In this document: in pieces, positions 11,210-35,432 of the stretch | Position numbering within the stretch: position 1 is the stretch's first letter | Layout of the letters: each line of letters starts with the position of its first letter | Assembly (NCBI RefSeq): GCF_020520425.1 | Contig: NC_079490.1 | Span: 121,478,715-121,542,714, forward strand | DNA from: Spinacia oleracea | Taxonomy: Eukaryota; Streptophyta; Magnoliopsida; Caryophyllales; Amaranthaceae | Reading direction: 5' to 3' | DNA: 64,000 nucleotides | Notes under the pieces: model-generated | Database searches by the model: none | What the model was told of the DNA's origin: nothing | Seen by the model: the letters and a program-made list of their open reading frames with translations, nothing else | Translations under genes and position numbers: made by a program

Positions 11210-12350
11210 AGAAACAATCTTCCAGTTCCAAAACTAGCCCAGAGGGCAACGACAAATAATAAGTTCCTACAGCTAATGCAGCAATCCGTGCTCCATTTCC
11301 CACTCGTAGGTCGACTGCACCCTTGCTTAACCTTCTACTTCTTCTTAGTCCCTGTGAATTGGAACATAAGTGTGAGCCACAACCTGTATCTAATACCCAA
11401 GAAGTTGAAATAGAAAGTACACAGTCTATAACGAAAATACCTGAAGATGGAACGACTATTCCGTTCTTCTGATCTTCCTTAAGCTTTGGACATTCTCTCT
11501 TGTAATGGCCTATTCCATCACAATAAAGACAGCTTGATGTGGACTTGTCCTGCTTTGTCTTAGCATTGCCCTTGGACTTTCCACCTTTCTTGAAGGGTCT
11601 CCCTTTAGCCTTGAGTAAATCTTTGGCTTCACAGTCGAGTACTATCTCAGCCTTTCTGACAAGGTGAACAAACTCTGCAACTGTTTCTTCTCTTGGTTCA
11701 CTTAGGTATAGTTGCTTGAAGCGACCAAACCCACTGTGCAGTGAATTGAGCAAGATAGAGACTGCCATCCTTTCGCTTATTGGTGTTCATAGAAGACTTA
11801 GGCGATCAAAATATGAAAGCATAAGCTCCACATGGAACCTCAGTAGGACGCCTACCCTCTGTTTAGTGCGAAGGAGCTGAACATGTGTTTCTTGGACCTG
11901 CATCCTATAACTCCTGTTAGGAGAACCAACCTTCAGACCAGACATTGATTCAATCAACTCATGGACATTTAGGTCCCTGTCCTCTGTGTTTCCACGACAG
12001 ATATCCCTCAGATTCTTGATGAGCGTAAAAGGTTCGTAAGCTACAAACCTTCTAGCCCATTCATCAGGGATATTGTTCAGCATGAGACTCATAACCTTTT
12101 TGAGATCCGCATCCCAGGGCGCATATCTTTCAGGGGTCATGTCTCTGGCATAGTAGCTTGGAATGGGATGTAACAGTACATACTCAAGTCCATTGAGTCT
12201 GACTACTTCAACAAGCTTAGCTTCCCATTCAAGAAAATTCGTTAGGTTCAGCTTGACCATAAGCTCAGAACCCTTGATGATGTTTTGATTGTTGTTTTCC
12301 ATAGTTAAAACTACAATTGAAAAAGAATAAACAAATAAATAATCATTCAC
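11157..12350 (-). pseudogene. Copia gag and protease region, frameshifted
   Basis: The first open part (12350 to 11787) begins near MENNNQNIIKGSELMVKLNL at about 12301 and reads a copia-type Gag core (FLEWEAKLVEVVRLNGLEYV, later DEWARRFVAYEPFTLIKNLR). The frame breaks at about 11787-11768. The next part (11768 to 11157) carries a CX2CX4HX4C zinc knuckle (CLYCDGIGHYKREC) followed by the aspartic protease active site in VLDTGCGSHLCSN and the C-terminal protease strand (LELEDCFYVPSL). The frame is lost again near 11165-11205 before pol. Gag coats the genomic RNA and the protease releases it from Gag-Pol in this family. The breaks mean that no single polyprotein is made here. Confidence 0.88.
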
Positions 12351-14913: not shown

Positions 14914-16316
14914 TGTTAGGTTATGATACATATAAACGAATATAAATCATGCGGAAAAACCATAAATGCCAGGATTCCAAATTAATTGCCACATAACAAT
15001 TAGCATAATTAGGATGCATACTCTCTGTAGCGTGCCCTCCCTTGCTGCGCCCGAACCGAACAAGAACAAGTCTTTAAGACTCCAAGTGTCGTCCCTCCGT
15101 AGAAAGTCCACAGCACGTCCGGATCCGCCTTAAGATTGACCAACTAGAATCGCCAAGGTACTAATTTATTCGGCTATTATGGGCAAGTGTATGATTGAAT
15201 TTGTGCTCAAATTCTTAGCTTTGAATACTTCAAACACGTTATAAATTATGAGCTTTGATCTCATATTTATAGGGCATGGAATAAGCAATCGAATCCTACT
15301 AGGATACGAATTAATTAAATTAGAATCCTAGTAGAACCCTTATTTAATTAATTTATCTTTTAGGATTAGGAATTTAATCATCAAACGAATCTTATTCGCT
15401 TTAGGTTTCGTATGTGAACACAAACACACACGCACGCACAGCAGCCCACGTGGGGCGCCATGCGCACGCGCGCGCAGAGCCCGAGCAGCGACGCAGCCCA
15501 CTCGGCCACGAAGCCCACGAGGCTGCCTGCCCCTTTGGCGCGCGCTGGGCCTGCCTTGCGGTGGGCCTGGAAGCAGCCTTGGGCTGGGCATGTGTGGCGC
15601 GCTATTGCCTTGCTGGACGCGGGCCTGGCTTCGTGCTGGGCCTTCGTCTAGCAAGCTCGTCCGATGCTAATTCGTACGACGCGCTTCCGATTAATTTCCC
15701 GATTCCGGAATTCATTACCGATACGAACAATATTTAACATTTCCGATTCCAGAATTAATTTCCGTATCGAACAAATATTTAATATTTCCATTTACGGAAT
15801 TATTTTCCGATTCCGATATTATTTCCGATTCTGACAATATTTCCGTTTCCGGCAATATTTCCGATTCTGGCAATATTTCCATTTCCGATAATATTTTCCG
15901 ATACGTACCATCCGTTTCCGGCAACATCTACGACTTGGATAATATTTATATTTCCGATACGATCCATATTTCCGTTTCCGGCAATATCATCGTTTTCGGA
16001 GTATTCATTTATTTGCCTTTGACGATCTCAGCTCCCACTGAAACTAAGATCCGTCGATTCCGAATATCCATTAGATAGAGTATTTAATGCCATTAAATAC
16101 TTGATCCGTTTACGTACTATTTGTGTGACCCTACGGGTTCAGTCAAGAGTAAGCTGTGGATTAATATCATTAATCCACTTGAACTGAAGCGGCCTCTAGC
16201 TAGGCATACATATCCCTTGATCTCACTGAATTATTAACTTGTATAATTAATACTGAACCGCATTTATTAGACTTACCATTAAATGCATTATTGCACCAAG
16301 GGAATTATTTTCTTCA
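14914..16316 (-). repeat. 5' LTR of the minus-strand copia element
   Basis: It starts 'tgttaggttatgatacat' on the plus strand, directly beside the primer-binding site, and ends 'attttcttca' at 16316. It differs from the partner LTR by several small indels, including a 15-20-bp difference in the GC-rich block near 15500, so this insertion is older than the one at 46651. Confidence 0.88.
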
Positions 16317-16740: not shown

Positions 16741-17938
16741 GTTATATCAACAATTTTGAGTTAAATGGCCGTTTTCGGTTCCAAATCTTAACTAATGAAC
16801 CTAAATAAGCATTCCAAACCCTTTACACGTTTAATATAATTAATATTAGGATGATAAGATTCATTCTCATCTACTTTGGGCAACTAATGCTCATTTAAGG
16901 CTCGTTTGAACGTTATAGGACATATTTTTACTATAATTGTTGTTTTCACTCCCAACTCTCAACTAATCAACCTAAATACGTATTCTAAACCCTTTACATA
17001 TTAAATATACTTAATATTAGGATGATAAGACTAATTCTCATCTACTTTGGTCAAGTTATGCAATTTAAGACTCGTTTGATCGTTATATGTCATATTTTGA
17101 CTATAATTCTTGTTTTCGCTACCAACTCTCAACTAATGAACCTAAATACGTATTCTAATCCCTTTACATGTTAAATGTACTTAATATTAGGATGCTAAGA
17201 CTCATTCTCATCTATTTTGGTCAAGTTATGCAATTTAAGGCTCGTTTGATCGTTATATGTCATATTTTGACAATAATTGTTGTTTTTGCTCCCAACTCTC
17301 AACTAATGAAGCTAAATAGGTATTCTAAGACCTTTTAAATGTTTAATATACTTAATATTAGGATGATAAGACTCATTCTCAGCTACTTTTGTCAAGTTAT
17401 CACATTTAAGGCTCGTTTGATCATTATATGTAATATTTTGACTAAAATGGTCGTTTTCGGTTCCAACTCTTAACTAATGAACCTAAATAAGTATTCTAAA
17501 CCCTTTACACGTTTAATATACTTAGTATTAGGTTACGAAGACTCAATATCATCTACTTTGCTCAACTTATGCAGATTTAAGGCTCGTTTGAACGTTATAG
17601 GACATATTTTGACTATAATGGTTGTTTTCATTCCCAACTCTCAACTAATGAAGCTAACTAGTTATTATAAACTCTTTAAATGTGTAATATACTTAATATT
17701 TGGATGATAAGAATCATCTTAACCACTTTGGTCAAGTTCTGCAATTTAAGGCTTGTTTGATCGTTATATGGCATATTTTGAGTATAATGATCGCTTTCAC
17801 TCCCAACTCTTAACTAATGAACCTAAAGAAGTATTTTAAACCCTTTACCCATTTAATATACATATATTAGGTTGCGTAGACTCATTCTCATCTACTTTGG
17901 TGAAGTAATGCACATTTAAGGCTCGTTTGATCGTTATA
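16741..17938 (+). repeat. Tandem array, about 170-bp unit (left part)
   Basis: The phrase 'ctcgtttga' recurs at 16901, 17071, 17241, 17412, 17583, 17752 (as 'cttgtttga') and 17922, a spacing of 169-171 bp. Each unit carries 'cccaactctcaactaatgaa' and 'actcattctcatctactttg'. The array is cut exactly at 17938 by the CACTA end and resumes at 34901. The unit is related to the 161-bp satellite inside the inner CACTA element. Confidence 0.88.
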
Positions 17939-18340
17939 CACTAGTAGAAAAAACCCTTATTGCAGCGGGCTTTTAGACCCCTGTTGCAGCGTACATCGTA
18001 TGCTGCAACTGGGGGGCCTGCAACAAGTCTGAACTTGTTGCAGCGTACATGTTCGCTGCAAAAAGTGATTTGTTGCAGCGGGCTTTTAGATGTACGCTGC
18101 AACAAGTGCCAAAAAATTGGCAAAATTTTGGACTTGTTGCAGCGTACATATAAAAGCCCGCTGCAACAGACCCAACTTTTTGCAGCGTACATTTATTTGT
18201 ACGCTGCAACAAGTCTGAATTACTCAATTTTTTGCAGCGTACATTTATTTGTACGCTGCAACAAGTCTGAATTTTTGCGAAATTTTTTTCCCTTGTTGCA
18301 GCGTACAACATATATGTACGCTGCAAAAAAGCACTTTTGG
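17939..18340. repeat. Left subterminal repeats of the CACTA element
   Basis: About ten copies of 'ttgcagcgtacat' and its inverse 'atgtacgctgcaa', often paired as short hairpins (for example 'gcagcgtacatttatttgtacgctgc' around 18182-18207). CACTA subterminal repeats bind the transposon's own DNA-binding proteins. The reading frames through this block exist only because the repeat lacks stops. Confidence 0.88.
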
Positions 18341-18595
18341 CGGGAAAATTCTAATTTTGTTTAGGGATACCTAGAGTGCCTTGCACCAAATATAGAAACC
18401 TGTCAAAACAATAATAGAATAACGCAACCTGTATAACAAATATAAAAACAACAACTGGAGTTTTGTATATATCCCAAAACCAAAAGTGCACATACCGATA
18501 CATTTAAATACATTTACGTTCCAATTTCAACGTACGCATACATTTTAACATAAAAGATTGTTCTATAACATCTAAACCAACACGATCAAGCGCCA

Positions 18596-21500
18596 TCAGG
18601 TCAATAATAAATACTTGGTGGTAAAAAACTTCGCCCATTGCTCACGAACCACATCAATTTCCTCACTAGCATAAGGCGCAGTCCTCGGAGTATAGACCTT
18701 ACAAAAACAAAAAATTGATGGAGCATTAGATCGATTAAATGCAAATGAAATGTCACATTTTAACATTCAAGCAACTAATGACAATGTATTAATAGTCTAG
18801 AATACGAATCAATTAGTTACTTAATTACCTCATCTAGCCGGCCTTCATAGTCATGTTGTAACGTGACTATCTCTAACATGAACTTCATAACGTAATAGCC
18901 ACACTCAGTTCCGCCGATTTGTTGAGCACACTGATTAAGAAACATAATACTTTATCTTGCAAGGCCAATAATTAATAAAAACAAAGCAAAAAGCTAATTA
19001 AGAAACATGTTATACCTCTATATGAATGGGTTTACACGACTTAAAACTCGTTTTATTCGGACAATGCCCACCATTGCACTTGTACACTTGGTATGCCCTA
19101 GAAAATTAACGAAACATGGGTACTCATGAATATGATTTTGGCTTAGGTTTCTTAAAGACTAATGTAATTTGTAAGCAAAAGAACTTACAAACTCAAGATT
19201 CCCCATGCATAATCTGTTCGACGTGGATCTCTAGCAGAATCGAAAATATATACATAACCTCTACGTAGGTCCATCACGTATAAATTCCAATGATTTCTGT
19301 ATAATTTATAAATGATATATTAAATATTTAATAACAATAATAATTAATATTTTATATGAAACTTATATAATATAACACACTTACTCTTGATTATATGGGA
19401 TTAAAAACCAATTAGTTAGGTTAGGATTACCCATCTTCTCCTTTTCAATTTCAGCTTGGAAAATGTTTTTCAAATACATTGTTGGCGCTCCAGGGTCGGC
19501 CTTGATTCTAGTGCTTGACATAATCTCGGGACAAATGAACGAAATCCGAGACATTTCAAATGATTTGGCATGATCGTACAATAAACACCTACAAAATAAA
19601 CAAGATTACACTATTAAGATCGATAAAGAGAAAAAACTTCAAAGAAATAATAGTTTTATTAACAACAATAAAACATTTAATTACAATATGTAGACTTGGA
19701 TCGCTGAAATGTTTAAGCACGCCCCGCGAAGGAACTCTCCTATATCAGACGCAGTTATGTATGTTTCTTAATCAAAATCCGAGTGCCAAACTGAGGCCGC
19801 CAATGGGATGGTAGTATTATCATATATATCATCAGGCGCCGAAGTCATGATAAACTGCAAGTATTTGCATGACGGGCCAAGACCTTGAATTGCATCGTGT
19901 ACAAGTCCCGCTTTCTTGCTTTTGGTGGTTGATTCTTGTGTTTTACGATCACAACTACCCACGACCTCTAAGTTGGACTTAGGCTTAGAATTCGACTTCT
20001 TTGGATGCGAAAATTCCTATAACAATAGTCAATTAACATTAGTCATATAATAAGAATCAAATGAGTCCTTAGGTTCTTTAGTTCAAATTTGGGAGCGAAA
20101 ATGTCATTTCAGCTCAATATATGACCTATAACGACCCAACGAGCCTTAAATGTGCATAAATAGGTTCGAATGAGTTTTAGAAACTTAAAACTATGCATAT
20201 TAGTCGTGTAATAAGAATCAAATGAGTCCTTAGGTTCTTTAGTTCAAAGTTGGGAGCGAAAATGTCATTTTAGGTCTATATATGACCTATAACGACCCAA
20301 CGAGCCTTAAATGTGCATAATTAGGTTCGAATGAGTTTTAGAAACTTAAAACTATGCATATTAGTCATGTAATAGGATTAAAATGAGTGTTTAGGTTCTT
20401 TAGTTCAAAGTTGGGAGCGGAAATGTCATTTTAGCTCTATATATGACATATAACGACCCAACGAGCCATAAATGTGCATGAATAGGTTCGAATGAGTTTT
20501 AGAAACTTAAAACTATGCATATTAATCATGTAATAAGAATAAAATGAGTAATTAGGTTCTTTAGTTCAAATTTGGGAGCGAAAATGTCATTTTAGCTCAA
20601 TATATGACCTATAACGACCCAACGAGCCTTAAATGTGCATAAATAGGTTCGAATGAGTTTTAGAAACTTAAAACTATGCATATTAGTCATGTAATAAGAA
20701 TCAAATGAGTCCTTAGGTTCTTTAGTTCAAAGTTGGGAGCGAAAATGTCATTTTAGGTTAATATATGACCTATAACGACCCAACGAGCCTTAAATGTGCA
20801 TAATTAGGTTCGAATGAGTTTTAGAAACTTAAAACTATGCATATTAGTCGTGTAATAAGAATCAAATGAGTCCTTAGGTTCTTTAGTTCAAAGTTGGGAG
20901 CGAAAATGTCATTTTAGGTTAATATATGACCTATAACGACCCAACGAGCCTTAAATGTGCATAATTAGGTTCGAATGAGTTTTAGAAACTTAAAACTATG
21001 CATATTAGTCGTGTAATAAGAATCAAATGAGTCCTTAGGTTCTTTAGTTCAAAGTTGGGAGCGAAAATGTCATTTTAGCTCTATATATGACATATAACGA
21101 CCCAACGAGCCTTAAATGTGCATGAATAGGTTCGAATGAGTTTTAGAAACTTAAAACTATGCATATTAGTCATGTAATAAGAATAAAATGAGTCATTAGG
21201 TTCTTTAGTTCAAAGTTGGGAGCGAAAATGTCATTTTAGCTCTATATATGACCTATAACGACCCAACGAGCCATAAATGTGCATAAATAGGTTGGAATGA
21301 GTTTTAGAAACTTAAAACTATGCATATTAGTCATGTAATAGGATTAAAATGAGTGTTTAGGTTCTTTAGTTCAAAGTTGGGAGCGAAAATGTCATTTTAG
21401 CTCTATATATGACCTTTAACGACCCAACGAGCCTTAAATGTGCATAAATAGGTTGGAATGAGTTTTAGAAACTTAAAACTATGCATATTAGTCATGTAAT

Positions 21501-24500
21501 AGGATTAAAATGAGTGTTTAGGTTCTTTAGTTCAAAGTTGGGAGCGGAAATGTCATTTTAGCTCTATATATGACCTTTAACGACCCAACGAGCCTTAAAT
21601 GTGCATAAATAGGTTCGAATGAGTTTTAGAAACTTAAAACTATGCATATTAGTCATGTAATAAGAATCAAATGAGTCCTTAGGTTCTTTAGTTCAAATTT
21701 GGGAGCGAAAATGTCATTTTAGCTCAATATATGACCTATAACGACCCAACGAGCCTTAAATGTGCATAAATAGGTTCGAATGAGTTTTAGAAACTTAAAA
21801 CTATGCATATTAGTCGTGTAATAAGAATCAAATGAGTCCTTAGGTTCTTTAGTTCAAAGTTGGGAGCGAAAATGTCATTTTAGGTTAATATATGACCTAT
21901 AACGACCCAACGAGCCTTAAATGTGCATAATTAGGTTCGAATGAGTTTTAGAAACTTAAAACTATGCATATTAGTCGTGTAATAAGAATCAAATGAGTCC
22001 TTAGGTTCTTTAGTTCAAAGTTGGGAGCGAAAATGTCATTTTAGCTCTATATATGACATATAACGACCCAACGAGCCTTAAATGTGCATGAATAGGTTCG
22101 AATGAGTTTTAGAAACTTAAAACTATGCATATTAGTCATGTAATAAGAATAAAATGAGTCATTAGGTTCTTTAGTTCAAAGTTGGGAGCGAAAATGTCAT
22201 TTTAGCTCTATATATGACCTATAACGACCCAACGAGCCATAAATGTGCATAAATAGGTTGGAATGAGTTTTAGAAACTTAAAACTATGCATATTAGTCAT
22301 GTAATAGGATTAAAATGAGTGTTTAGGTTCTTTAGTTCAAAGTTGGGAGCGAAAATGTCATTTTAGCTCTATATATGACCTTTAACGACCCAACGAGCCT
22401 TAAATGTGCATAAATAGGTTGGAATGAGTTTTAGAAACTTAAAACTATGCATATTAGTCATGTAATAGGATTAAAATGAGTGTTTAGGTTCTTTAGTTCA
22501 AAGTTGGGAGCGGAAATGTCATTTTAGCTCTATATATGACCTTTAACGACCCAACGAGCCTTAAATGTGCATAAATAGGTTCGAATGAGTTTTAGAAACT
22601 TAAAACTATGCATATTAGTCATGTAATAAGAATCAAATGAGTCCTTAGGTTCTTTAGTTCAACTTTGGGAGCGAAAATGTCATTTTAGCTCAATATATGA
22701 CCTATAACGACCCAACGAGCCTTAAATGTGCATAAATAGGTTCGAATGAGTTTTAGAAACTTAAAACTATGCATATTAGTCGTGTAATAAGAATCAAATG
22801 AGTCCTTAGGTTCTTTAGTTCAAAGTTGGGAGCGAAAATGTCATTTTAGGTTAATATATGACCTATAACGACCCAACGAGCCTTAAATGTGCATAATTAG
22901 GTTCGAATGAGTTTTAGAAACTTAAAACTATGCATATTAGTCGTGTAATAAGAATCAAATGAGTCCTTAGGTTCTTTAGTTCAAAGTTGGGAGCGAAAAT
23001 GTCATTTTAGGTTCGAATGAGTTTTAGAGGGTTTACCTTGGATGGTAAGTCAGTTGTCTTCTTTTGGGCCGCTAACACCGTTGTCTTTTTCTTGGAGCTA
23101 CCATCCCTCTCTTTAGAAACATTAGACTTGGACTTCTTTTTAGGAGGTGAAATACAATCCTTTAAAATTCAACAAAAACAAGAGTAGGTAAGATGTCGAA
23201 TGTGCTTGCGTGAACATATACATTCTAAACAATAAAACATATATACCTCGCCGTCTTCGAAAATCACTAAGTGTATGGGCCATTGCACAAAACTACCCAG
23301 AGCACCGCCTAAGTTAGTGAAACCATCTCCCGTAGGTACCGGAAGAATATCATCAACATGTCCGTCGTAAACAAAATCAACTTGGACTTTATAGTGACCA
23401 GGCTTCATCGATGTAAAATGTTGGGGCAATGCACCATCTGAGGGTTGTACCATACCATCCGCCACGACAATGTTGTTGCCTGAAACTTTCTCCTCAAGGG
23501 CAAGACGACATGGAGTCCTTTCCTTCATAAACAAAGGTTTCAATGCAACTTTGTAAGTGATACAGATTATTAAGTAAATGTCAACTAAAAACATAAAAGG
23601 ATCAAGCAACTATGTTAAAAAAGAGTGACTACGTCGTACCTTTAGCTCGTGTGGTTGCGGCACTAAGATGTGACGAGTGGTTCTTGTAGCACTAACATCA
23701 AGGTCAACTCTGGCAGAATCATTTAAGTGGAGGTCATCAGGTATCGGGGTAGAAATGGAGTTTAGTTGTCCTGTTTTTAACAAGGTGCTTAGTTGCTTTT
23801 GGAGGGCCTCTGCCACCCTCTTCTCTACCCTTTTCTCTAATTCACCTTCAAACTCCTTTTTCACAGAAGCTCTGATTGATTCGTAATTTTCTGATGAAGC
23901 TTCACCATGGTCACTTCTACTATGTCGAATACACGGACCGAAAGCCTTTTTGATACCAACCATGCCACCTGTTCCCTTGACACGCCCACGATGATCTTTT
24001 TTCCCTATAGCTTTAGTGAGGGCATCCTCACCCTGTTCGAAAGAAAGATTTCCTTTTTCCTCTTCTGCGATGTACTCTAACTGCCAATTAGGAAAGTAAT
24101 ATTACTTTATATTCTCTAATCAAAGCAAGTAAATATTAATTAATTATCGCTACTTACAGCTTTTGTTGCGATTTCAACAACTTCTGTATCGTTCGGGTCA
24201 ATTTCCCACTTTCCCTCTTTATTTTGTACTTGATGGGCCAAAATCCACTCCTTTGATCTGTATTTTCTAACTCTATTAACATTTGAGGTCACTGATGAGT
24301 TCACCGAGGAGCTACTCGAGATAGGTAAAGCTGCATCTGGTGGAAGTCGTCCATCCTTTATCCAATCTAGTCGCTTTCTATTATAACCCTTTTGGCCGGT
24401 GCGATGTGGGTTCTTGTTGCATGATGCACTTTTCCTCGCCTTTTCACTACGAAGCTGTCAAAGACAACATAAAAAGATGGAAATAAATGTTTTTTCTGAT

Positions 24501-25229
24501 AACTTTTTGTCCTAGAACCAATGTCAGTTTGCTACATGAAAAACTCTTTAAGGACAAGTTAAAGAAATATTATCATTACCAATGACTCTGGCAGGAAATA
24601 ATGTTTAACAAAAGTCTTCCAATCATCCTCTGTGATATGGTTGTAGACATCCCAAGGCATCTTGTTTGTTTGATTTTTTAGCTTCTTTTCCTTCATAGTT
24701 ATCCATCGGCGCACCAACTTGCTCTTGAAACAACTAAATCGTTTCGCCACACAAGAATGAAAATATTTCTCCCTCGAATGATTAGAATCATCAGTAATGT
24801 GGAACATAAGCTGTTAATAATTAAAAAAAGTTAGATTATAAAAATAGTATTTAAATCAAATTAAATAATCCCTAAAATATACAAATCAAGTTAATATCCA
24901 ATGCTTACCTTAGTCTCCTCCCAAAACCCCTTCTTGATTTGCTCATCTACCTTTGGATATAATGGGACGTTAATATTAATTCTAGTAGCACAACTCCCAA
25001 CTTGCTTCCCGTATTCATGAGACCATTGTCCATCGGGGACATTATATACATTATACTCAAGGAACATAGGCTTAGTGACTTTAACACCTTTTGACGGACC
25101 ACGGCCTTTAATGGTCTTTGTAATCGTACTAACATCTTGTGATTCGTCACGCGTTGTGGGAGTCTTGCCACCTTCTGATTCATGCCTAACAACAATTTGG
25201 TTTTCATTCATCGTACCTATGTTGTTCAT
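18596..25229 (-). pseudogene. CACTA second gene: Ptta/En_Spm domain plus Ulp1-like protease, 12 exons, one stop
   Basis: Exons read from GT..AG sites: 25229-24909, 24810-24580, 24454-24158, 24080-23640, 23522-23247 (5' edge least sure), 23159-23037, 20016-19685, 19588-19385, 19296-19189, 19097-19016, 18930-18829, 18697-18596. Exons 1-4 give the plant transposase Ptta/En_Spm pattern: GRGPSKGVKVTK, then SCFKSKLVRRW, WDVYNHITEDDW, NPHRTGQKGYNRKRLDWI and a Lys/Glu coiled coil. Exons 8-12 give a C48 (Ulp1-like) protease with the His in HWNLYVMDL, the Asp in YVYIFDSARD and the Gln/Cys in CAQQIGGTECGYYVMKFM. All phases agree except an in-frame TAA at 19770-19768, after which the family-like reading resumes (ETYITASDIGEFL). 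Intron 6 is the 3-kb satellite. The protein is presumed to bind subterminal repeats or assist TNP2. The stop would remove the protease. Confidence 0.85.
20017..23036 (-). repeat. 161-bp satellite array forming an intron, with 966-bp higher-order period
   Basis: The phrase 'acgacccaac' recurs 18 times from 20131 to 22868, every 161 bp. Units differ at fixed sites ('agctcaatat', 'aggttaatat', 'gacatataac', 'gacctttaac', 'gcggaaat'). The order of types repeats every six units: units at 21741-22546 repeat at 22707 onward and largely match 20775-21580. The array is bounded by splice sites of the second CACTA gene: donor CAAG|GTAAAC at 23036 and acceptor TTATAG|GAATTT at 20017. Phase 0 is kept across it. 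Confidence 0.92.
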
Positions 25230-25301
25230 GCATCAAGTAAAACATACAGAAGAGTGGTTACAAAATGTGCGCGCAGCAGCAAATCAGTGCTCTAGCATAC
25301 A

Positions 25302-25737
25302 GAAGGATATCAGATCAGTGCAGATATCACAGATCAGATCAGCACTGATCAGTGCAGATCAGATCAGCACTGATCTGCACTGATCAGATCAGCACAGATC
25401 AGTGCTGATCAGATCTGCACTGATCAGTGCTGATCTGATCTGTGATATCTGCACTGATCTGTTCTGCACTGATCTGATCAGCACTGATCTGTGCTGATCT
25501 GATCTGCACTGATCAGTGCAGATCAGATCAGCACAGATCTGTGCTGATCAGATCAGCACTGATCAGTGCAGAACAGATCAGCACAGATCAGTGCAGAACA
25601 GATCAGCACAGATCAGTGCTGATCTGATCTGCACAGATCAGTGCAGAACAGATCAGCACAGATCAGTGCAGAACAGGTCAGCACAGATCAGTGCTGATCT
25701 GATCTGCACTGATCTGTGCTGACCTGATCTGCAATGT
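25302..25737. repeat. Pentamer-word array rich in GATC (left block)
   Basis: The block can be written almost entirely as 5-base words: GATCA, GATCT, GTGCA, GTGCT, GCACT, GCACA, with a few variants such as GAACA. The words are mutually complementary when shifted, so any two stretches can pair and the block is strongly self-complementary. It ends 'gatctgcaatgttc'. It lies just upstream of the second CACTA gene. Open frames in it are artefacts of the period. Confidence 0.85.
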
Positions 25738-26565
25738 TCCCCCCTTGTTGATTTTGTTCGAATTATAACAATATGACTGTTGCATCTGCAGCTTGAGACA
25801 GGTAGTCAGGTAAGTCCATTTTTTTAAAGTGAAACCATAGAGGAACAATTGACACTATTTTAACCAAATATTTGGTTAATAAAATTTCATCAAGGATTTG
25901 CAGATGCTAGTTTTATGGCAGTCATAAGAGATAAATCAAGGTCAATTTTGAAACAACAGCAACTAACAGTACCACTCCCCACCAATTTTAAGTTTCTAGT
26001 TTGTGCAAAGGGGATCATGCAAAAGAGATGGCACTAATTGAAGAATGAACGAGAAATTTAAGTGTAAATATGTCAAAGCTCAACATAATGGAAAATCAAT
26101 AAGAACAGCATAGAGAGAAAGAAATTTAGGGGCTGTTTGGTTCCCCAGACTTCCCCCTGGACTTGGATTCCCCCAAATTTCTATCAGTCTCTCATTGGTC
26201 AATGACTCAATGGTCACCACCATCATCCCAAATCAATCCACCCCACCCCACCATCACCTCACCACCACTATCACCGTCACCTCACTAGTCACCACTAAAG
26301 CAACTCTCACTTCCACCCACCATGGATACATCACCAGAAAAACCAACCTTCACATCCCTTCCTTGATCCATTTCACCCCTTTTCCCTCTTTTTATTCCTC
26401 TCCGCTTTTTGTTAGGGACCAAAACATCGCTTTACAATGTAATTGAACAATTGATAGAATACTAAGTTGACACATGCTCCGGCCTTCAAAGAATCAAATC
26501 ATATCAAAGAATTTGAACTCTATAGCAGTAACAAGCCAACAAGCATGAAAAATTATATATGTGGA
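25738..26565. other. Unique spacer between the two pentamer-word arrays
   Basis: Mostly AT-rich, with a C-rich stretch at about 26195-26330 (CACCATCAC, CACCTCAC repeats). It includes 'ggggctgtttggtt' at about 26130, a phrase often seen at ends of small plant DNA transposons, but no matching inverted end was found. No gene is recognised. Confidence 0.4.
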
Positions 26566-26868
26566 ATGCACTGATCTGTGCAGATCTGATCAGCATAGAT
26601 CAGTGCTGATCAGATCAGCACTGATCTGTGCTGATCTGTTCTGCACTGATCTGTGCTGATCTGATCTGCACAAATCAGTGCAGATCAGATCAGCACTGAT
26701 CTGTGCTGATCTGTTCTGCACTGATCAGATCTGCAGAACAGATCAGCACAGATCAGTGCTGATCTGATCTGCACTGATCTGTGCAGATCAGTGCAGAACA
26801 GATCAACACAGATCAGTGCTACCCTCATCTGATCTGCATTGATCTGTGCTGATCTGATCTGCAATGTT
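26566..26868. repeat. Pentamer-word array rich in GATC (right block)
   Basis: Same word set as 25302-25737, ending with the same phrase 'gatctgatctgcaatgttc' in the same orientation. The two blocks are therefore direct copies at their right edges even though each is internally palindromic. Confidence 0.85.
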
Positions 26869-27129
26869 CTTTGTCATTCTTGGTGTGTTTGTTGAGGCAA
26901 TATGAGAATGCAGGGCAGCTAACTCATTCTATAAACAAGTTCTATTAATCTAGTATAGTACGGAGTTGTATGTAAGTTAGATCGTAAAATGAAATTATGT
27001 AATTGAGTTTCACTTAAACTCAAGCAACAATGATTAAGAAACTTAATGAGGAAATCTGACAATCTCACTTCTCTTATATCATGAAATCATATACTCATAT
27101 GAGATAAGTCTAGAAAACACCACTTATGC
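26869..27129. other. AT-rich spacer
   Basis: I see no gene or repeat here. It links the pentamer-word block to the inverted satellite block. Confidence 0.4.
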
Positions 27130-28640
27130 TAAAATGAGGCATTTTCGCTCCCAGCTATGAACTAACGAACATAAGGACTCATTTTAACCTTTTAAATGAT
27201 TAATATGATTAATTTTAACTTTCCAAGACTCGATCCGATCTATTTATTCACATTAGAGACTTGTTTGGTCGTTGTGGTTCATATTTATGATAAAATGAGG
27301 CATTTTTGCTCCCAACTATGAACTAAAGAACCTAAGAACTCATTTTTAGGCTAATATGACACTTTCTCTCCCAACTTTGAACTAACAAACCTAAACACTC
27401 ATTTTAATCCTTTTAAATGATTAATATGATTAGTTTTAACTTTCCTAGACTCAATCCAATCAATTTATGCCATTTGAGACTTGTTTGGTCGTTATGGTTC
27501 ATATTTATGCTAAAATAAGACATTTTCGCTCCCAACTTTGAACTAACAAACCTAAACACTCATTTTAATCCTATTACATGACTAATATGCATAGTTTTAA
27601 GTTTCTAAAACTCATTCCAACCTATTTATGCACATTTAAGGCTCGTTGGGTCGTTATAGGTCATATATAGAGCTAAAATGACATTTCCGCTCCCAACTTT
27701 GAACTAAAGAACCTAAACACTCATTTTAATCCTATTACATGACTAATATGCATAGTTTTAAGTTTCTAAAACTCATTCCAACCTATTTATGCACATTTAA
27801 GGCTCGTTGGGTCGTTATAGGTCATATATAGAGCTAAAATGACATTTCCGCTCCCAACTTTGAACTAAAGAACCTAAACACTCATTTTAATCCTATTACA
27901 TGACTAATATGCATAGTTTTAAGTTTCTAAAACTCATTCCAACCTATTTATGCACATTTAAGGCTCGTTGGGTCGTTAAAGGTCATATATAGAGCTAAAA
28001 TGACATTTCCGCTCCCAACTTTGAACTAAAGAACCTAAACACTCATTTTAATCCTATTACATGACTAATATGCATAGTTTTAAGTTTCTAAAACTCATTC
28101 CAACCTATTTATGCACATTTAAGGCTCGTTGGGTCGTTAAAGGTCATATATAGAGCTAAAATGACATTTTCGCTCCCAACTTTGAACTAAAGAACCTAAA
28201 CACTCATTTTAATCCTATTACATGACTAATATGCATAGTTTTAAGTTTCTAAAACTCATTCCAACCTATTTATGCACATTTATGGCTCGTTGGGTCGTTA
28301 TAGGTCATATATAGAGCTAAAATGACATTTTCGCTCCCAACTTTGAACTAAAGAACCTAATGACTCATTTTATTCTTATTACATGACTAATATGCATAGT
28401 TTTAAGTTTCTAAAACTCATTCGAACCTATTCATGCACATTTATGGCTCGTTGGGTCGTTATATGTCATATATAGAGCTAAAATGACATTTCCGCTCCCA
28501 ACTTTGAACTAAAGAACCTAAACACTCATTTTAATCCTTTTAAATGATTAATATGATTAGTTTTAACTTACCTAGACTCAATCCAATCAATTTATGCCAT
28601 TTGAGACTTGTTTGGTAGTTATGGTTCATATTTATGCTAA
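27130..28640 (+). repeat. 161-bp satellite array, inverted relative to the intron array
   Basis: The phrase 'ggctcgttgggtcgtta' recurs near 27641, 27802, 27963, 28124, 28285 and 28446, every 161 bp. Older diverged units occupy 27130-27600 and 28550-28640. The unit is the reverse complement of the 20017-23036 repeat and has the same orientation as the 170-bp array outside the element. It lies between the end of TNP2 and the start of the second gene. Confidence 0.9.
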
Positions 28641-29110
28641 TTTAGTCAACTAAGGTCAATTTAGGTCAATTTATTCAACTAAGGTCAATTTAAGCCCGCT
28701 CGTTTTGATTTAGGTCATTCTAGCTCAAGATTAGGAGACATGTTAATTAGCGCAACACTAGGAGAAAACGCACAACTCACCAAAAGTAAATACGTGCTTT
28801 ATTTTCCGATTCTGAGAACTTCTGAAAAGACACAAATCACCGAAAGCTTCTGAAAATTTCTGACTCGGGGATCTCAAGTCATCTGCACAGAAAGTTAGAA
28901 AACTTTGGTCAGGAACAAAAGTAAGATGTGGAAGTACAGTAAGAATTAAAGAAAGCTAGAAAAGTATAATCATGAACACAATGGAAGTATAAAATAAGAA
29001 TTAAAGATGTGGAAGTACAAACTACACCTTCCTAAATGCTAGAAAAGATACATTTAATCTGATATTCAGTTAGCTAGAATTACCTATTCCCAGAAGCCAA
29101 CTCATCTTAA
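28641..29110. other. Spacer downstream of TNP2
   Basis: A short run of 'aaggtcaatttaggtcaatt' repeats sits near 28650-28690. The rest is unassigned. It should contain the TNP2 3' untranslated region, but no poly(A) signal can be chosen with confidence. Confidence 0.4.
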
Positions 29111-32100
29111 TCATTTACGGTTTACAACCCAAATTCCTTCCCTATGATCTTTACGCATATGATTAGTATTATTTGCATCTTCCTCCTCCGGTAACGGTTG
29201 AACAGCCGTTGGTAACAGGGGTGTTTCATCGTACTTGTCATACTCATCTTCATCCACAACATCATCAATACCCAGAATATTTCTCTTGCCTTGGGCAACT
29301 GCACGCCATATAGGATCAACATTGTCTACCACATAGAAAATTTGCTTAGCTTGTGATGCTAGAATGAATGGCTCGTCACTATCACTTAATCGATCAAAGT
29401 TAACCAATGTTAAACCAGGAAAAATTTCATCTTGTTTCACCCCATTATGGTTGTTGGCCCACTTGCACCGGAATACAGGGATCGTAAATTTGTTGTAATC
29501 AAGCTCCCATATTTCTTCGATAACACCATAATATGATTGTGTCGCATCAACCGGTCTTCTATCCTTGGCGCTTGCATAGACCCTAGATGCTGCAACATGC
29601 TTCACTCCACTATTCTGCACCACACTCTTTTCATCTTGTCTTCTAGTGTAGAATGTGAACCCATTGATATCATACCCTTCATAAGACAGAACACATAGTC
29701 GAGGACCTCGAGCTAACCACTGGACCATTTCAGAAACATCTAGATTTTTTTTCATTTCCTCGGCTACTTCCTTCTTAAACCAATCAACAAATGTGCGATT
29801 ATGTTCTTGCATCAACGCTCTTTCCTTCAACTTAGGATTCTTTTGTTGCAATTCTAGCAAATGCTTATCTATGTAAGGATTGACCTCGGTAAGATGCTGC
29901 AACACACAAAGATGTGCCTTATTCTTCCTTTCAGATGGAGGCGAGATCACATTTTTACCAATTACCCCATGCCCTTCAAGCCTCCCTGCATGACGAGATT
30001 TTGGAAGACCTATTTGCTCAAGCCTTGTTAAGAATTCAGCTACATATTGAGATATCTCTTCCTCAAGGACTCCCCGAATGATACTACCCTCCGGCCTTGC
30101 CCGATTCTTTGTTTTGTCCTTTAAATGCCCAAAAAATCTCTCAAAAGGATACATCCATCTTAAGAACACCGGACCACATAACTTGATTTCTCGAACTAAA
30201 TGGACAATTAAGTGCACCATAATATCAAAGAAAGATGGTGGAAAGTACATTTCAAATCGACACAAAGTTTCAACAATATCATTGTGCAAAGAATCTAATT
30301 TCTCCGGATCAATCACTTTAGCACATATAGAATTGAAAAACACACAAAGTTTTGTTATAACATGTCTCACGTGTTTCGGCAATATCCCACGAAGTGCAAT
30401 TGGCAAAAACACATTAATCATTACATGGCAATCATGAGACTTCATACCAACCAACCTAAGGTCCGAGAGAGATACTAGGCGCTTTACATTCGACGAATAT
30501 CCCGAGGGAACCTTAATTCCATGTAAGCACTCACAAAACTGCTTCTTCTCCTTTCTTGACATTGTGTAACACGCTGGAGGCAGATAAGTCTTAGTACCAC
30601 CCGCACCAGATTTTTCAACAGGCCACAAATCTGGTCGAATATTCCTCTTTTTCATATCTTTCCGCACATTCTCATTGTCCTTAGTCTTTCCAGGCATGTT
30701 TAGCAAAGTCCCAATGATAGCATCACACACATTTTTCTCAATGTGCATTACATCGAGACAATGCCTAACCGACAAATCTCTCCAGTAGGGAAGATCCCAT
30801 AATGGAGATACTTTCTTCCACAAAACACCCTTTTTAGACTTGGACTTGTAGCACTTGCCGTATTTGGTTTCAACATTTTTTATTCGTTCATAAACCTGTG
30901 ATCCTGTCAAAGGCGTACGAGCTACTCTTTCCTCGGTGAACCCATTGAATTCTTTCTTCTTCTTACGATAAGGGTGATATCGACTGAGGTGCTTCCTGAA
31001 ATCTGGGTAAACATTTTTCTTGAAATTATGCAACCATGTGGGCTTCATGTCCTCTTCACATATAGGGCATGCTTGTTCTCCTTTGGTTTTGTATCCAGAC
31101 AAGTTTCCATATGCCGGAAAATCATTTATGGTACAAAAAACCATAGCTCGCAATGTAAAGCTTGAATTGGTGTGTGCATCGAACATTGAAACACCTTCAT
31201 TCCACAATAATTTCAAATCATCTATGAGTGGAGCCAGGTACACATCTATGTCATTTCCAGGTTGCTTAGGCCCCGAGATGAGGAGTGATAACATGATATG
31301 CTTCCGCTTCATACACAGCCATGGAGGAAGATTATAAATTGCTAGAAGAACCGGCCATGTGCTATGTTGACTGCTTAGAGTTCCATATGGATTCACACCA
31401 TCTGCACATAAAGCAAGCCTTAGATTTCTAACCTCCTTACCAAATTCAGGATATTTCTTATCAATATTTCTCCATTGAACAGAATCTGCAGGATGTCGAA
31501 GGAGTCCATCTTTCTTCCTCACTTCCGCATGCCACCTTAAGTTTTTTGCTTGTTTCTTCAATGAAAACATACGCTCAAACCTAGGTATGATTGGAAGATA
31601 CCACAAAGACTTAGCAGGCGGGCCCCTCTTAGCTGAATTTGCCCCTTTGCGTTTGTAACGAGATGCGCCGCATGTTGGACACTCATCCAAATGTTCATGC
31701 TCTTTTCTGTAAAGGATACAATCATTTGGGCAAGCATCTATCTTGTCCACCTCTAAGCCTAAGGGACACATCAATTTCCTGGCATAATAGGTAGAGGTGG
31801 GGATATCATTCCCTTCCGGCAAAAATTCACCTACCCACTCCAATAAGGTGTCAAAGTGTTCATCTCTCCAACCACCTTTACATTTGAGGTTGTAAAGTAT
31901 TGACACACATTCCAACTTGCTGAATTTTGAACAACCGGGATACAATGGAGTTTCAGCAGCCTTTGATACTTGTTCGAACATCTGAGGTCGTTCGTCCAAG
32001 TGATCTTTCAGCCCATCCATCATCTCATTTATTTCATCATCTTCTTCCTCATCATCATCCGTCTCATTATTCTCATAAATATCATCATCACTCTCATTAC

Positions 32101-32383
32101 TCTGAACATCAAATTCATGGACACTAGAACTTGGACGATCAGGTATTGTTTCACCATGCCAAAACCAAACATGGTAATCTTGCTTAAACCCACGGCGAAA
32201 TAAATGATCCTCAATTTCATCAATGTCACCTAACCGCTTGATATTGTTACAATCACGGCAGGGACAATAGATTTTTTCGGCTTTTGTACTCCGTTGGTGT
32301 GCTAAAGCACATCTAATGAACTCTGCGACCCCACTCAAGTATTCTGCCGTAGTATGGTCACCATACATCCAATGACGACTCAT
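29111..32383 (-). CDS. TNP2-type CACTA transposase, intact
   Basis: This is the catalytic transposase that cuts the element ends in En/Spm-type transposition. It is one uninterrupted exon of 1090 codons from the start chosen at 32383 (MSRHWMYGD). An in-frame Met 10 codons upstream (32413) gives only a Leu run, and the family's transposase-associated domain begins at MSRHWMYG. Domains in order: transposase-associated domain (residues about 1-75, with CPCRDC), an acidic Asp/Glu patch (about 95-120), a Cys-rich CPNDCILYR ... CPTCG segment (about 215-245), the TNP2 core (about 270-500, with LPPWLCMKRKHIML and ACPICEE), DUF4218 (about 640-760, KSHDCHVMINVFLPIALRG) and DUF4216 (about 940-1030, SYYGVIEEIWELDYNKF). 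No stop or frameshift was seen. Its partner gene lies downstream on the same strand. Confidence 0.95.
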   Translation of the reverse strand: MSRHWMYGDHTTAEYLSGVAEFIRCALAHQRSTKAEKIYCPCRDCNNIKRLGDIDEIEDHLFRRGFKQDYHVWFWHGETIPDRPSSSVHEFDVQSNESDDDIYENNETDDDEEEDDEINEMMDGLKDHLDERPQMFEQVSKAAETPLYPGCSKFSKLECVSILYNLKCKGGWRDEHFDTLLEWVGEFLPEGNDIPTSTYYARKLMCPLGLEVDKIDACPNDCILYRKEHEHLDECPTCGASRYKRKGANSAKRGPPAKSLWYLPIIPRFERMFSLKKQAKNLRWHAEVRKKDGLLRHPADSVQWRNIDKKYPEFGKEVRNLRLALCADGVNPYGTLSSQHSTWPVLLAIYNLPPWLCMKRKHIMLSLLISGPKQPGNDIDVYLAPLIDDLKLLWNEGVSMFDAHTNSSFTLRAMVFCTINDFPAYGNLSGYKTKGEQACPICEEDMKPTWLHNFKKNVYPDFRKHLSRYHPYRKKKKEFNGFTEERVARTPLTGSQVYERIKNVETKYGKCYKSKSKKGVLWKKVSPLWDLPYWRDLSVRHCLDVMHIEKNVCDAIIGTLLNMPGKTKDNENVRKDMKKRNIRPDLWPVEKSGAGGTKTYLPPACYTMSRKEKKQFCECLHGIKVPSGYSSNVKRLVSLSDLRLVGMKSHDCHVMINVFLPIALRGILPKHVRHVITKLCVFFNSICAKVIDPEKLDSLHNDIVETLCRFEMYFPPSFFDIMVHLIVHLVREIKLCGPVFLRWMYPFERFFGHLKDKTKNRARPEGSIIRGVLEEEISQYVAEFLTRLEQIGLPKSRHAGRLEGHGVIGKNVISPPSERKNKAHLCVLQHLTEVNPYIDKHLLELQQKNPKLKERALMQEHNRTFVDWFKKEVAEEMKKNLDVSEMVQWLARGPRLCVLSYEGYDINGFTFYTRRQDEKSVVQNSGVKHVAASRVYASAKDRRPVDATQSYYGVIEEIWELDYNKFTIPVFRCKWANNHNGVKQDEIFPGLTLVNFDRLSDSDEPFILASQAKQIFYVVDNVDPIWRAVAQGKRNILGIDDVVDEDEYDKYDETPLLPTAVQPLPEEEDANNTNHMRKDHREGIWVVNRK

Positions 32384-32862
32384 TACTAATAACAACAACA
32401 AAAGGTTCCACACATAAACACATATATTAAGAAGTCACAAAATCATTAAGAAGTTCCGCAAATCTTTGGTTACATCATTTAAGTTTATCAATGCTTCACT
32501 GAAGTGATATTAGAAGTCCAAAAACAGTCCTAATAAGTAAAACGGAATGGATACTTAAGCATAGAATACTAATGTACACGTTTTATTATTACACTTACTA
32601 TACTTATCCAAATTTTATTTATCGTAAAAATGATATGCACTTACTGTACTATTGATTTCAACTTTCAAAAGAGGAAAAGAGAAATTTTATGAAGATAATT
32701 AGATATATCAATACCTTATGCAATTGTTGAAATTTGAACAAGCACGATGATAGATTATGCTGGCAGTACGATCATCGCCCCTCTCTTCAACCATATGCGT
32801 ATCTACCCATCTTCACAATTAACTGCAAATTAAAGAAATAATTGAAAAACAGCCAAAAAAAT

Positions 32863-32938
32863 CAAAATAAAAACGAAAATCAAAACGAAAATCAAAACGA
32901 AAATCAAAACGAAAATCAAAACGAAAATCAAACGAAAA
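32863..32938. repeat. 12-bp minisatellite 'aaaacgaaaatc' (first block)
   Basis: About six near-perfect copies in a row. The same unit recurs at 34182-34263. Confidence 0.8.
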
Positions 32939-33694
32939 TAGTTCGAGGGCCAAATTCAGATATTTCTCATAGAATGCATGTAACAGGAAATTAACTATCT
33001 ACCACATCACCACGTAGCAATCACATTATTCAAGTTATTGGCATTAACGCAGCATTCAAGTGCGGAACTAAGTGCTTACGTAACCTCGGGGAAGGAAGAA
33101 GGGTAATGCCAGAATAAAATCCTGTAACCTGGGCTGTAAGAAGCCTTTCATATATGCTGATAGGCTTCAGTCGGCAAAAATGTGGTGTTATTTATCCTTT
33201 AAACCTATTGGAATCAGATATCTCTTTTGCCTAATAATGGAGGAGGTTGAAAAATACTCTAGGAACTTCCTTTACTCCAAACAAGGCTCTAGTATTCCAG
33301 GATTTAAAAGCTATCCTAAAGTGGCAGGTGGCCGGAATGTCGCACCCACAAAGCAGCAGCCAATAAGCTGATAAAAAGTGGGGCTCAGAAGATAGCAGAC
33401 TTACAGTTAAAAATAATCTTTAATTGCTGAGATTTGACGAGTTCAGTTGGTAATGGGCACGATGTTCTGCATCACACTACTTATTTCTTTCAAGTTTATA
33501 TATGATGTTTGTGTGGCTCGTATGCTAAAGTTTCTTAGAGGAAGGTTTTGAGAGGTACAAGAGCTAGTTCATGCGCATATGTGAGAGCCTTGAAAATGTT
33601 CAACTCTTCTTTTTCAGTGTAAATACTAAATAGTCTAAATCAGTGTGGACAAAGGCCAGTGATTTCCTGAAGGTCTTGGGTTTACAACGACCAC

Positions 33695-33946
33695 TTAATG
33701 GTTTTGACTCACAACTGACTTGAGGTAAACTTGAGTCAAGCAGCCATCCCATATCGTCTGTACACAAAGGTTTGAGATCTTAAAACAGAATTTTAACCCA
33801 GATGGTTGGATAACAGAGATTATTTTGTAAGGTCCTGCAAATGAAGAGTTCCCCTTCCCAACTCTACCAAGAAGACGGGTGAATACTGATGTTTTTGAAG
33901 GGCCTGATACTACTGATCTAAGTGATGTATTCAACACTTTGAGCAT
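33695..33946 (-). pseudogene. Possible Ty3-gypsy integrase C-terminal fragment
   Basis: A minus-strand frame reads GKGNSSFAGPYKIISVIQPS, then IWDGCLTQVYLKS. This follows the wording of gypsy integrase tails (a GPYK(I/V) segment, later a W..xHLKxYY segment). It has no neighbouring integrase core. A poly(A) run lies just beyond it on the plus strand. It may equally be chance. Confidence 0.3.
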
Positions 33947-34181
33947 ACTTGGAAATTAAAAAAAAAAAAAAAAAAAAGGTAATCCAAAAGCCTCTTGGAA
34001 ATCAGCAAAATAACATCCAAACAACAGTCTGAAGGGGTGAGTAGCAGTCAGCAACAGCCTTAGGCCATTCCCCATTACTTGTTATGAGCAAGCTTAAATA
34101 GTGGCTGTGTGCTTTTTAAAGAAATAGATCTATACTCGGAAACATAGCAATCCCCATTTACTTCGTTGGGTCGTTAAGTTT

Positions 34182-34263
34182 CAAAAACGAAAATCAAAAC
34201 GAAAATCAAAACGAAAATCAAAAACGAAAATCAAAAACAATAATCAAAACGAAAATCAAAAAC
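34182..34263. repeat. 12-bp minisatellite 'aaaacgaaaatc' (second block)
   Basis: About six copies with small indels. The block is preceded at 34163 by 'tcgttgggtcgtta', a short piece of the 161-bp satellite. Confidence 0.75.
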
Positions 34264-34669
34264 TAAAATTGAACCCTAATCTGAAAACGAAAATAAAAAA
34301 CGAAAATAAAAATTGAACACACCATACCACCGGAACCACGACGCCGAGCAACCACCGGAACCACGACGCGACGGGGTGATGCTGAACCACAGAACCAAGA
34401 CAGCGACGCAGGGCTGAACCACGGAACCACGGAACCAAGACAGCGACGCAGGGCTGAACCACGACGCGACGGGGAGATGAGCAACCAACGGAACCAAGAC
34501 AGCGACGCAGGGCTGAGCAACTCTTGGGTTCGACGGCGACGCGAGCTGAGTTCGACGGCGACCTTGGATATTTGTTTAAGGGAAAAGGCTTGGAGCTATA
34601 GCAGAGAAGGAACAGAGATTGAGCGCGGTTTGTACGTTGCAACTAGGAAAGTAAAAATTTTAATTTGAA

Positions 34670-34900
34670 ACGCGGACTTGTTGCAGCGGGCATTAACATG
34701 TACGCTGCAATAACTACGGGTTGTTGCTGCGGGCTTTTATTTTGTACGCTGCAACAAACGCATTTGTTGCGAACAACTAAAATGTACGCTGCGATAACCC
34801 TTTAAAGGGTTTGACCCGCGTTGACCGACTGGTTGTTGAAGCGTATTTATACTTGTACGCTGCAACAAGGGGGCTGCAACAGGGGTTTTTTCTACTAGAT
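34670..34900. repeat. Right subterminal repeats and terminal repeat of the CACTA element
   Basis: Copies of 'ttgcagcgggcat', 'atgtacgctgcaa' and related forms lead to 'ggggctgcaacagggg' and 'ttttttctactag'. The last two bases are AT where the other end predicts TG. They lie next to the ATA duplication. Confidence 0.88.
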
Positions 34901-35432
34901 ATAGGACATATTATGACTATAATGGTTGTTTTTGCTCCAACCTCTAAACTAATGAACCTAAATATGTATTCTAAGAACTTTACATGTTTAATATAGTTAA
35001 TATTAGGATGATAAGACTCATTCTCACCTATTTTGGTCAAAGTATGCACATTTAAGGCTCGTTTGATCGTCATAGGACATATTTTGACTATAATGGTTGT
35101 TTTCGCTCCCAATTCTCAACCAATGAAGCTAAATAGGTATTCCAAGCCCTTTACATGTTTAAAAAAATCATTTTTATGTTTCTATGACTCATTCTCAGCT
35201 ACATCGGCTACGTTATGCACATTTAAGGCTCGTTTGATTGTTATATGTCATATTTTTACTAAAATAGTCATTTTTGGTCTCAACTATCAGCTAATGAACC
35301 TAAATAGGTATTCTAAACTGTTTATATGTTTTATATACTTGGTACTAGGTTGACAAGACTCATTCCCAACCATTTTGGTCAAGTTATGCACATCTAAGAC
35401 TCATTTAAGTCTCGTTTGATCATTGATGATGC
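34901..35432 (+). repeat. Tandem array, about 170-bp unit (right part)
   Basis: The array cut at 17938 continues here: 'ataggacatattatgact' completes the unit started before the CACTA insertion. 'ctcgtttga' recurs at 35058, 35229 and about 35411. The last unit is diverged. Confidence 0.85.

Follow-up and report, generated by a model that had tools for sequence, protein, structure and literature searches.

The closest described system comes from Chenopodium quinoa, in which CACTA elements hold a captured array of 171-bp satellite DNA (satDNA) (Belyayev and colleagues 2022, PMC8978399). The subject of this report is a comparable element in spinach, Spinacia oleracea: a CACTA element of 16,962 bp on the minus strand (17939..34900) of a 64,000-nucleotide stretch (contig NC_079490.1, positions 121,478,715 to 121,542,714; the window, whose own numbering is used below). 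The second gene of this element, a Ulp1/C48 protease gene, appears to have a 3-kb satellite array as its sixth intron. The quinoa element is alike in its length (about 16.5 kb), in coming from the same plant family and in having an internal tandem array in several copies, for which its authors propose capture and spread (PMC8978399). The quinoa array is, however, placed near the 3′ end of the element, and section 10 of that paper makes no mention of an intron, an exon junction or an array-free orthologous intron. The quinoa 171-bp satellite was also considered as a member of the same satellite family and rejected, as its score of 71 compares with a shuffle mean of 55.7 (standard deviation (sd) 10.3) and 23 of 300 shuffles score as well.

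The Jozin CACTA element and the CficCl-61-40 satDNA of Chenopodium (PMC7320549) also tie a CACTA element to a satellite; there the start monomer is a 40-bp fragment from within the coding part of tnp2, whereas the spinach satellite does not derive from element coding sequence and is intronic. The Drosophila Y genes kl-3 and kl-5 hold satellite in gigantic introns of expressed genes, and are a precedent for splicing across satellite (PMC6508621). These are host genes with megabase introns, in contrast with the spinach array, which lies in a mobile element, is 0.8–3.3 kb long and occurs in many places. A survey of exon/intron structure in CACTA transposases likewise deals with introns of CACTA genes (PMC4158355), but in the parts relevant here it covers the transposase gene, finds no transposable elements in its introns, and does not treat the C48 gene or intronic satellites. 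Satellites known from spinach include SolSat01-171-s, StuSat01-158-s and Spsat1-3 (PMC7840529, PMC6337768); SolSat01-171-s equals in length a 171-bp unit that flanks the element (see below), the comparison being one of length, and the passages on these satellites give no CACTA link. In the literature as cited here, satellites in CACTA elements and satellites in introns are each described, and both together were not found. What is new is this combination, along with relatives that still have the intron free of the array and many copies that form a series of repeat numbers. Four pieces of the satellite sequence had no match in printed papers, and exact 25-mer matches to the unit were absent from viral and prokaryote contigs.

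With a probability of about 0.86, we read the 3-kb array as intron 6 of the second gene of a young spinach CACTA family; the array travels with the element, changes by whole 161-bp units and would be removed by splicing. Intron 6 spans 3,020 bp (20017..23036, minus strand), with GT-AG ends and in phase 0. On the minus strand, exon 6 ends ...CCATCCAAG at 23037 and the intron opens GTAAACC at 23036; the intron ends ...TTGTTATAG at 20017 and exon 7 opens GAATTTTCG at 20016, with LPSK joined to EFSHPKK in phase 0. Tandem Repeats Finder (TRF) places the 161-bp array at 20038..23010 on the same strand (period 161, 18.5 copies, 96% matches, score 5323), and the whole intron belongs to it except some 7 bases next to the donor and some 21 next to the acceptor. 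The intron is 67% AT; among its 112 GT sites the annotated donor alone fits at least seven of the nine positions of a donor consensus. Stop codons occur in every frame of the unit, and its length is not a multiple of three, so that only splicing would keep the frame at every array length. A six-unit block of 966 bp occurs twice in the window array with one difference. Chance is no explanation for the regularity of the array and the coincidence of its ends with a donor and an acceptor in phase 0. An earlier note on this DNA had described 20017..23036 as an intron with clean splice sites, filled by 18 tandem 161-bp units and joining LPSK to EFSHPKK in phase 0; the window sequence agrees, with about 18 units. 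Intron 6 has the marks of a spliceosomal intron: GT-AG ends, a frame that is kept, and the same position in relatives.

The gene that surrounds it (gene 2) is modelled with 12 exons (25211..18590, minus strand). Exons 1 to 6 lie at 24909..25211 (with the ATG), 24580..24810, 24158..24454, 23640..24080, 23247..23522 and 23037..23159 (ending LPSK). Exons 7 to 12 lie at 19685..20016 (beginning EFSHPKK), 19385..19588, 19189..19296 (C48, HWNLYV), 19016..19097, 18829..18930 (C48, ECGYY) and 18590..18697 (ending LLLT stop; the modelled stretch extends two codons beyond the stop). All joins are in frame, and the sole internal stop is a TAA at codon 640, in exon 7, which is private to this copy: the 13 other copies compared all read CAA at that codon. 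Ten of the introns are 77–131 bp long, as against 3,020 bp for intron 6. The product of exons 7–12 contains Peptidase_C48 (PF02902; E 2e-8, 34.8 bits against a cut-off of 20.7, profile 87-189 of 217), which is carried as well by a relative protein, P0006; a protein search with this product gave two matches, a C48 protein of quinoa and, more weakly, a protein of spinach. Spinach is also the source named for NCBI proteins that are 95–99% identical. For the N-terminal part, precomputed annotation of the NCBI proteins P0001-P0005 gives PF26133 (DUF8039), and our own hmmscan of P0001, P0002 and P0003 gave no DUF8039. P0003 has an extra N-terminal stretch that may be thioredoxin-like.

Stretches of the genome were fetched around the best-scoring matches to one unit of the window array, a sample that less similar satellite copies elsewhere could escape. 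Element sequence outside the arrays is present at >95% identity in all 25 stretches. A second test, independent of the satellite, used exon DNA and gave 40 exon-6 places (40 scored of 170 candidates) and 65 exon-7 places; 31 of the 40 exon-6 places are paired with an exon 7. These 31, measured by exon coordinates, and two copies measured by sequence (L025 and L043) make 33 measured copies; where a copy is known by coordinates only, the presence of the array is judged from the intron length. The earlier note had proposed a genome-wide look for other copies with array-filled introns, and across the 33 copies intron 6 is indeed 766–3,309 bp long, with none short. By coordinates, 26 of 31 lengths are exactly 2,054 ± n × 161 bp, three are within 2 bp of this ladder and two (2,140 and 3,309) are off it. 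Fourteen copies (the window and 13 others) were read through intron 6, and all have the same array with GT-AG ends; their lengths are 766, 1410, 1571, 1732, 1893, 2054 (six copies), 2140, 2697 and 3020 bp. The units follow an order common to the copies, with the master string A B H C D F A A J E G B.

Satellites are prone both to late, independent insertion and to assembly artefacts, and the array might on these grounds be thought a free satellite that entered each copy separately, or an error of assembly. This is extremely unlikely: the junctions are identical in the 14 copies read, except at the 3′ edge in L023, the intron lengths are quantised, and the order of units is shared. As far as the compared sequences go, inheritance of the array with the element, and gain and loss of whole 161-bp units, are demonstrated. 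In L023 itself (2,140 bp) the junction between array and intron 3′ end is altered, with the last 18 bases and the AG retained. Outside the array, eleven copies differ by a mean of 0.29% (0.09–0.47%) over about 4,249 bp, with 62 variable sites, 57 of them in single copies; a rate of 7e-9 would place this divergence at about 0.2 million years. The host family of the array is a young CACTA family of spinach. In ten other copies all 12 exons were located, and six of these (L021, L024, L027, L029, L030 and L032) are open for 866 codons; intron 7 of L029 reads GT..AA, with a changed acceptor.

The state of the intron in the absence of the array is preserved in a relative family (P0003; 58% identity, with 98% of the query covered). 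About 78 exon-7 places at 91–100% were counted for this P0003-like family. At the position of intron 6 it has an intron of 86 bp (L051) or 78 bp (L053), and neither of the two that were read contains satellite. Their ends, AAG/GTAAACC...TTGTTACAG/GAA (TTGTTAYAG/GAA), fall at the same codon and in the same phase as in the window; therefore the satellite replaced the middle of a pre-existing intron. Within the gene models compared, intron 6 is demonstrably older than the satellite. In L052, a sister-subfamily copy read at the acceptor side, an exon 7 of 96.6% identity over 87 bp is preceded by the array, with units 94–96% identical, so the satellite arrived before the window family and this subfamily split. 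Between the window family and the relative family, the ratio of nonsynonymous to synonymous substitution rates (dN/dS, NG86) is 0.54 for exon 4, 0.30 for exon 5 and 0.42 for exon 7, values under one to either side of intron 6.

An array that fills exactly the interior of an intron could also have grown in place from the intron's own sequence, with nothing imported. We regard this as very unlikely, since a related 171-bp satellite exists outside the window family and the short introns of the relatives are no more like the unit than shuffled sequences are: they score 18 against 16.7 (sd 2.4; 163 of 500 shuffles as good) and 16 against 16.7 (332 of 500). Amplification from the intron's own sequence was dropped as an origin, the 86- and 78-bp introns being no closer to the unit than shuffles.

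The proposal in the earlier note that the array is an intron of a CACTA gene is borne out by its location in intron 6 of all 33 copies measured, the unchanged GT-AG ends in the 14 read, and the ordinary intron that the relatives have at this codon, in identical phase. The opposite pattern that it had envisaged, of relatives without an intron at this codon and an array inserted later at a non-splice position, is seen in neither of the two relatives. Its other counter-pattern, transcripts that end inside the array, may be exemplified by the NCBI protein P0002, which stops nine codons after the donor. Its idea that a mobile element is a route for satellite seeds holds, within limits: spread inside the element is seen in 25 of 25 stretches, all of which hold element sequence; free satellite seeds were not seen, the sampled arrays lying in elements.

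Under the favoured reading, the spliceosome would remove the array, which would hence be tolerated, and exons 1–6 and 7–12 would yield one protein of 866 aa; a transcript read through the donor would give 566 aa, ending nine codons beyond it. Each transposition would take the satellite to new places, and its length would change through unequal exchange or slippage between units. The scatter of short satellite arrays in plant genomes is an open question, for which capture by transposons has been put forward as one route. In the spinach element the site that harbours the array is known to the base, being an intron, and relatives still show what it was like before the array came. The near-identical copies with 4 to 20 units form a natural series in which to ask whether a spliced intron shelters satellite and whether its length affects splicing.

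The NCBI protein models bear on both products. P0001 ends ...TTDLASKEFSHPKK...CKYL, with LASK joined to EFSHPKK at the exon 6/7 junction of the window. Its source copy is C1:30008161-30011676, matched by LASK before the donor and a TAG after CKYL; intron 6 is there 2,698 bp long, with its two ends read. An unlikely alternative is that transcription mostly stops in the array, gene 2 being in practice a 566-aa protein lacking the protease and exons 7–12 silent passengers. The end of P0002, ...LPSKVNPLKLIRT, is exactly as read-through predicts, and an AT-rich (67%) intron of 3 kb is long beside the 77–131 bp of the others. Exons 7–12, however, are open in six of the ten other complete copies, exon 7 has a dN/dS of 0.42 against the relative, exons 6 and 7 are joined in P0001 over an intron of 2,698 bp, and donor and acceptor stay constant while the length varies fourfold.

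Several observations weigh against splicing of the array as the general fate of the transcript, or limit the material behind it. The window copy has the exon 7 stop and changed bases at its 5′ end, and may for these reasons be dead. Four of the ten other complete copies (L022, L023, L025 and L039) are broken, and nine of the 40 exon-6 places are unpaired. P0001 retains part of intron 4, unlike the 12-exon model, and its copy has an exon 7 stop; P0002 (566 aa, 99% identical) passes the donor and stops in the array nine codons on, after VNPLKLIRT. The dN/dS values come from a single pair of families and carry no test of significance, and the comparison of introns comprises two array-free relatives and one sister copy.

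The element contains a second 161-bp array (27350..28631, plus strand; 8 copies), in opposite orientation to the first and situated between gene 2 and the transposase gene TNP2; diverged units with a 220-bp period lie by it (27143..27566). The consensus sequences of the two arrays have an identity of 0.969, and units are as similar between arrays (0.952) as within them (0.951 and 0.951), some intron units of half-read copies being counted in the ‘other’ pool. Such an arrangement raises the possibility that the intronic array is a regulatory variable number tandem repeat (VNTR), whose length sets how much spliced (protease) product is made relative to the retained (566 aa) one, or which, with the inverted upstream array, forms a hairpin RNA controlling the element. 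The inverted pair with its high identity between arrays is consistent with this, as are NCBI models for both kinds of product and the spinach protein P0005, in which parts of TNP2 and of DUF8039 are fused, a hint that in relatives both genes share one pre-mRNA. Array length nevertheless varies, between about 4 and 20 units, without any sign of being constrained, and a regulatory role is unlikely.

Three of the 25 stretches (L033, L041 and L042) hold internal deletion derivatives, which correspond to window 20037-28641, 20037-30281 and about 28590-32502; in each the junction falls within an array or at its edge, and one of them fuses both inverted arrays. The arrays appear as break points in these copies and may promote the formation of non-autonomous copies. 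Also between TNP2 and gene 2, a 25-bp palindromic unit of the GATCAGATCAGCACTGATCAGTG type forms two tandem arrays (25328-25733 and 26567-26865), on either side of about 830 bp. The pair resembles a fold-back insert and is found in copies L042 and L044 too.

The assignment to CACTA (En/Spm) elements is based on terminal inverted repeats, a 3-bp target-site duplication, a TNP2-type transposase and subterminal repeats in both orientations. The element ends ...TTTTTTCTACTAGTG at 17939 on its 3′ side and begins ATCTAGTAGAAAAAACCCC at 34900, the counterpart of the latter in other copies being CACTAGTAG...; the terminal repeat CACTAGTAGAAAAAACCC opens the 5′ end in four copies, and CTACTAGTG closes the 3′ end in the window and 15 others. 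At 34898-34900 the 5′ terminal repeat of the window copy begins AT (ATCTAG), against CA in four other copies, and the altered bases may affect its mobility. The duplication is TAT in the window (17936..17938 and 34901..34903, minus strand); such duplications (TTT, GTT, GAG and TAT) were found in four of five copies tried, the 5′ end of the fifth lying outside its stretch. The TNP2 open reading frame (ORF) runs from stop to stop at 29111..32434 (minus strand) and contains Transposase_21 (E 1.9e-88), DUF4218 (8.7e-35), Transpos_assoc (1.3e-19) and DUF4216 (3.3e-17). Subterminal repeats of the GCAGCGTACA type occupy 17949..18345 at the 3′ end and 34600..34880 at the 5′ end.

In the window, the element sits inserted within arrays of a 171-bp satellite (16753..17938 and 34901..35406, plus strand), the unit of which is related to the 161-bp unit (score 270 against a shuffle maximum of 109; none of 300 shuffles as good). 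The 171-bp unit is unmatched in the 3′ flanks of 15 other copies, which gives no sign of an insertion preference for satellite; the nested insertion in the window is therefore a single case. Beyond the array, after an acceptor ...TTGATTATAG, lies what is left of the final exon of an older CACTA C48 gene (16522..16644, minus strand; VFMNKLREC...LLLFAFLAL stop). Its product scores 53 against the C48 last exon, with a shuffle mean of 15.6 (sd 3.2) and none of 20,000 shuffles as good; the best E-value in a whole-window tblastn is only 0.55. Forty rows chosen among the matches listed to the 171-bp unit (373 in all) gave 33 arrays, and in 22 of these, including that of the window, a C48 exon piece lies within 3 kb in the same orientation, at 192–198 bp from the matching unit in 17. 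The recurrence of this exon piece in 22 of 33 arrays led us to drop the idea that the 171-bp arrays are free satellite.

The 171-bp array thus appears to be part of an older dispersed family, and it lies probably in the last intron of that family's C48 gene, the upstream exon of which was not found. That an older C48 family also holds a related satellite suggests more than one occasion on which introns of this gene came to host it. Tentatively, introns of the CACTA C48 gene may form a reusable harbour for one satellite superfamily (161 bp in intron 6 of the young family, 171 bp in the last intron of the older one), where arrays could expand, contract and move with each transposition because they are spliced out; together with the inverted array they may give the element a control over its own RNA that varies with array length. 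If that were true, transposon introns would be a main means by which this satellite is kept and dispersed.

Elsewhere in the window, minisatellites of an 18-bp CGGAAATATTACCGGAAACGG type occur at 46-318, 6839-7108, 15694-15902, 47042-47279 and 55778-56050, and are perhaps parts of repeated elements. A Copia-type polyprotein ORF lies at 8861-11233 on the minus strand, with RVT_2 (E 3.2e-73), an integrase core and gag_pre-integrs.

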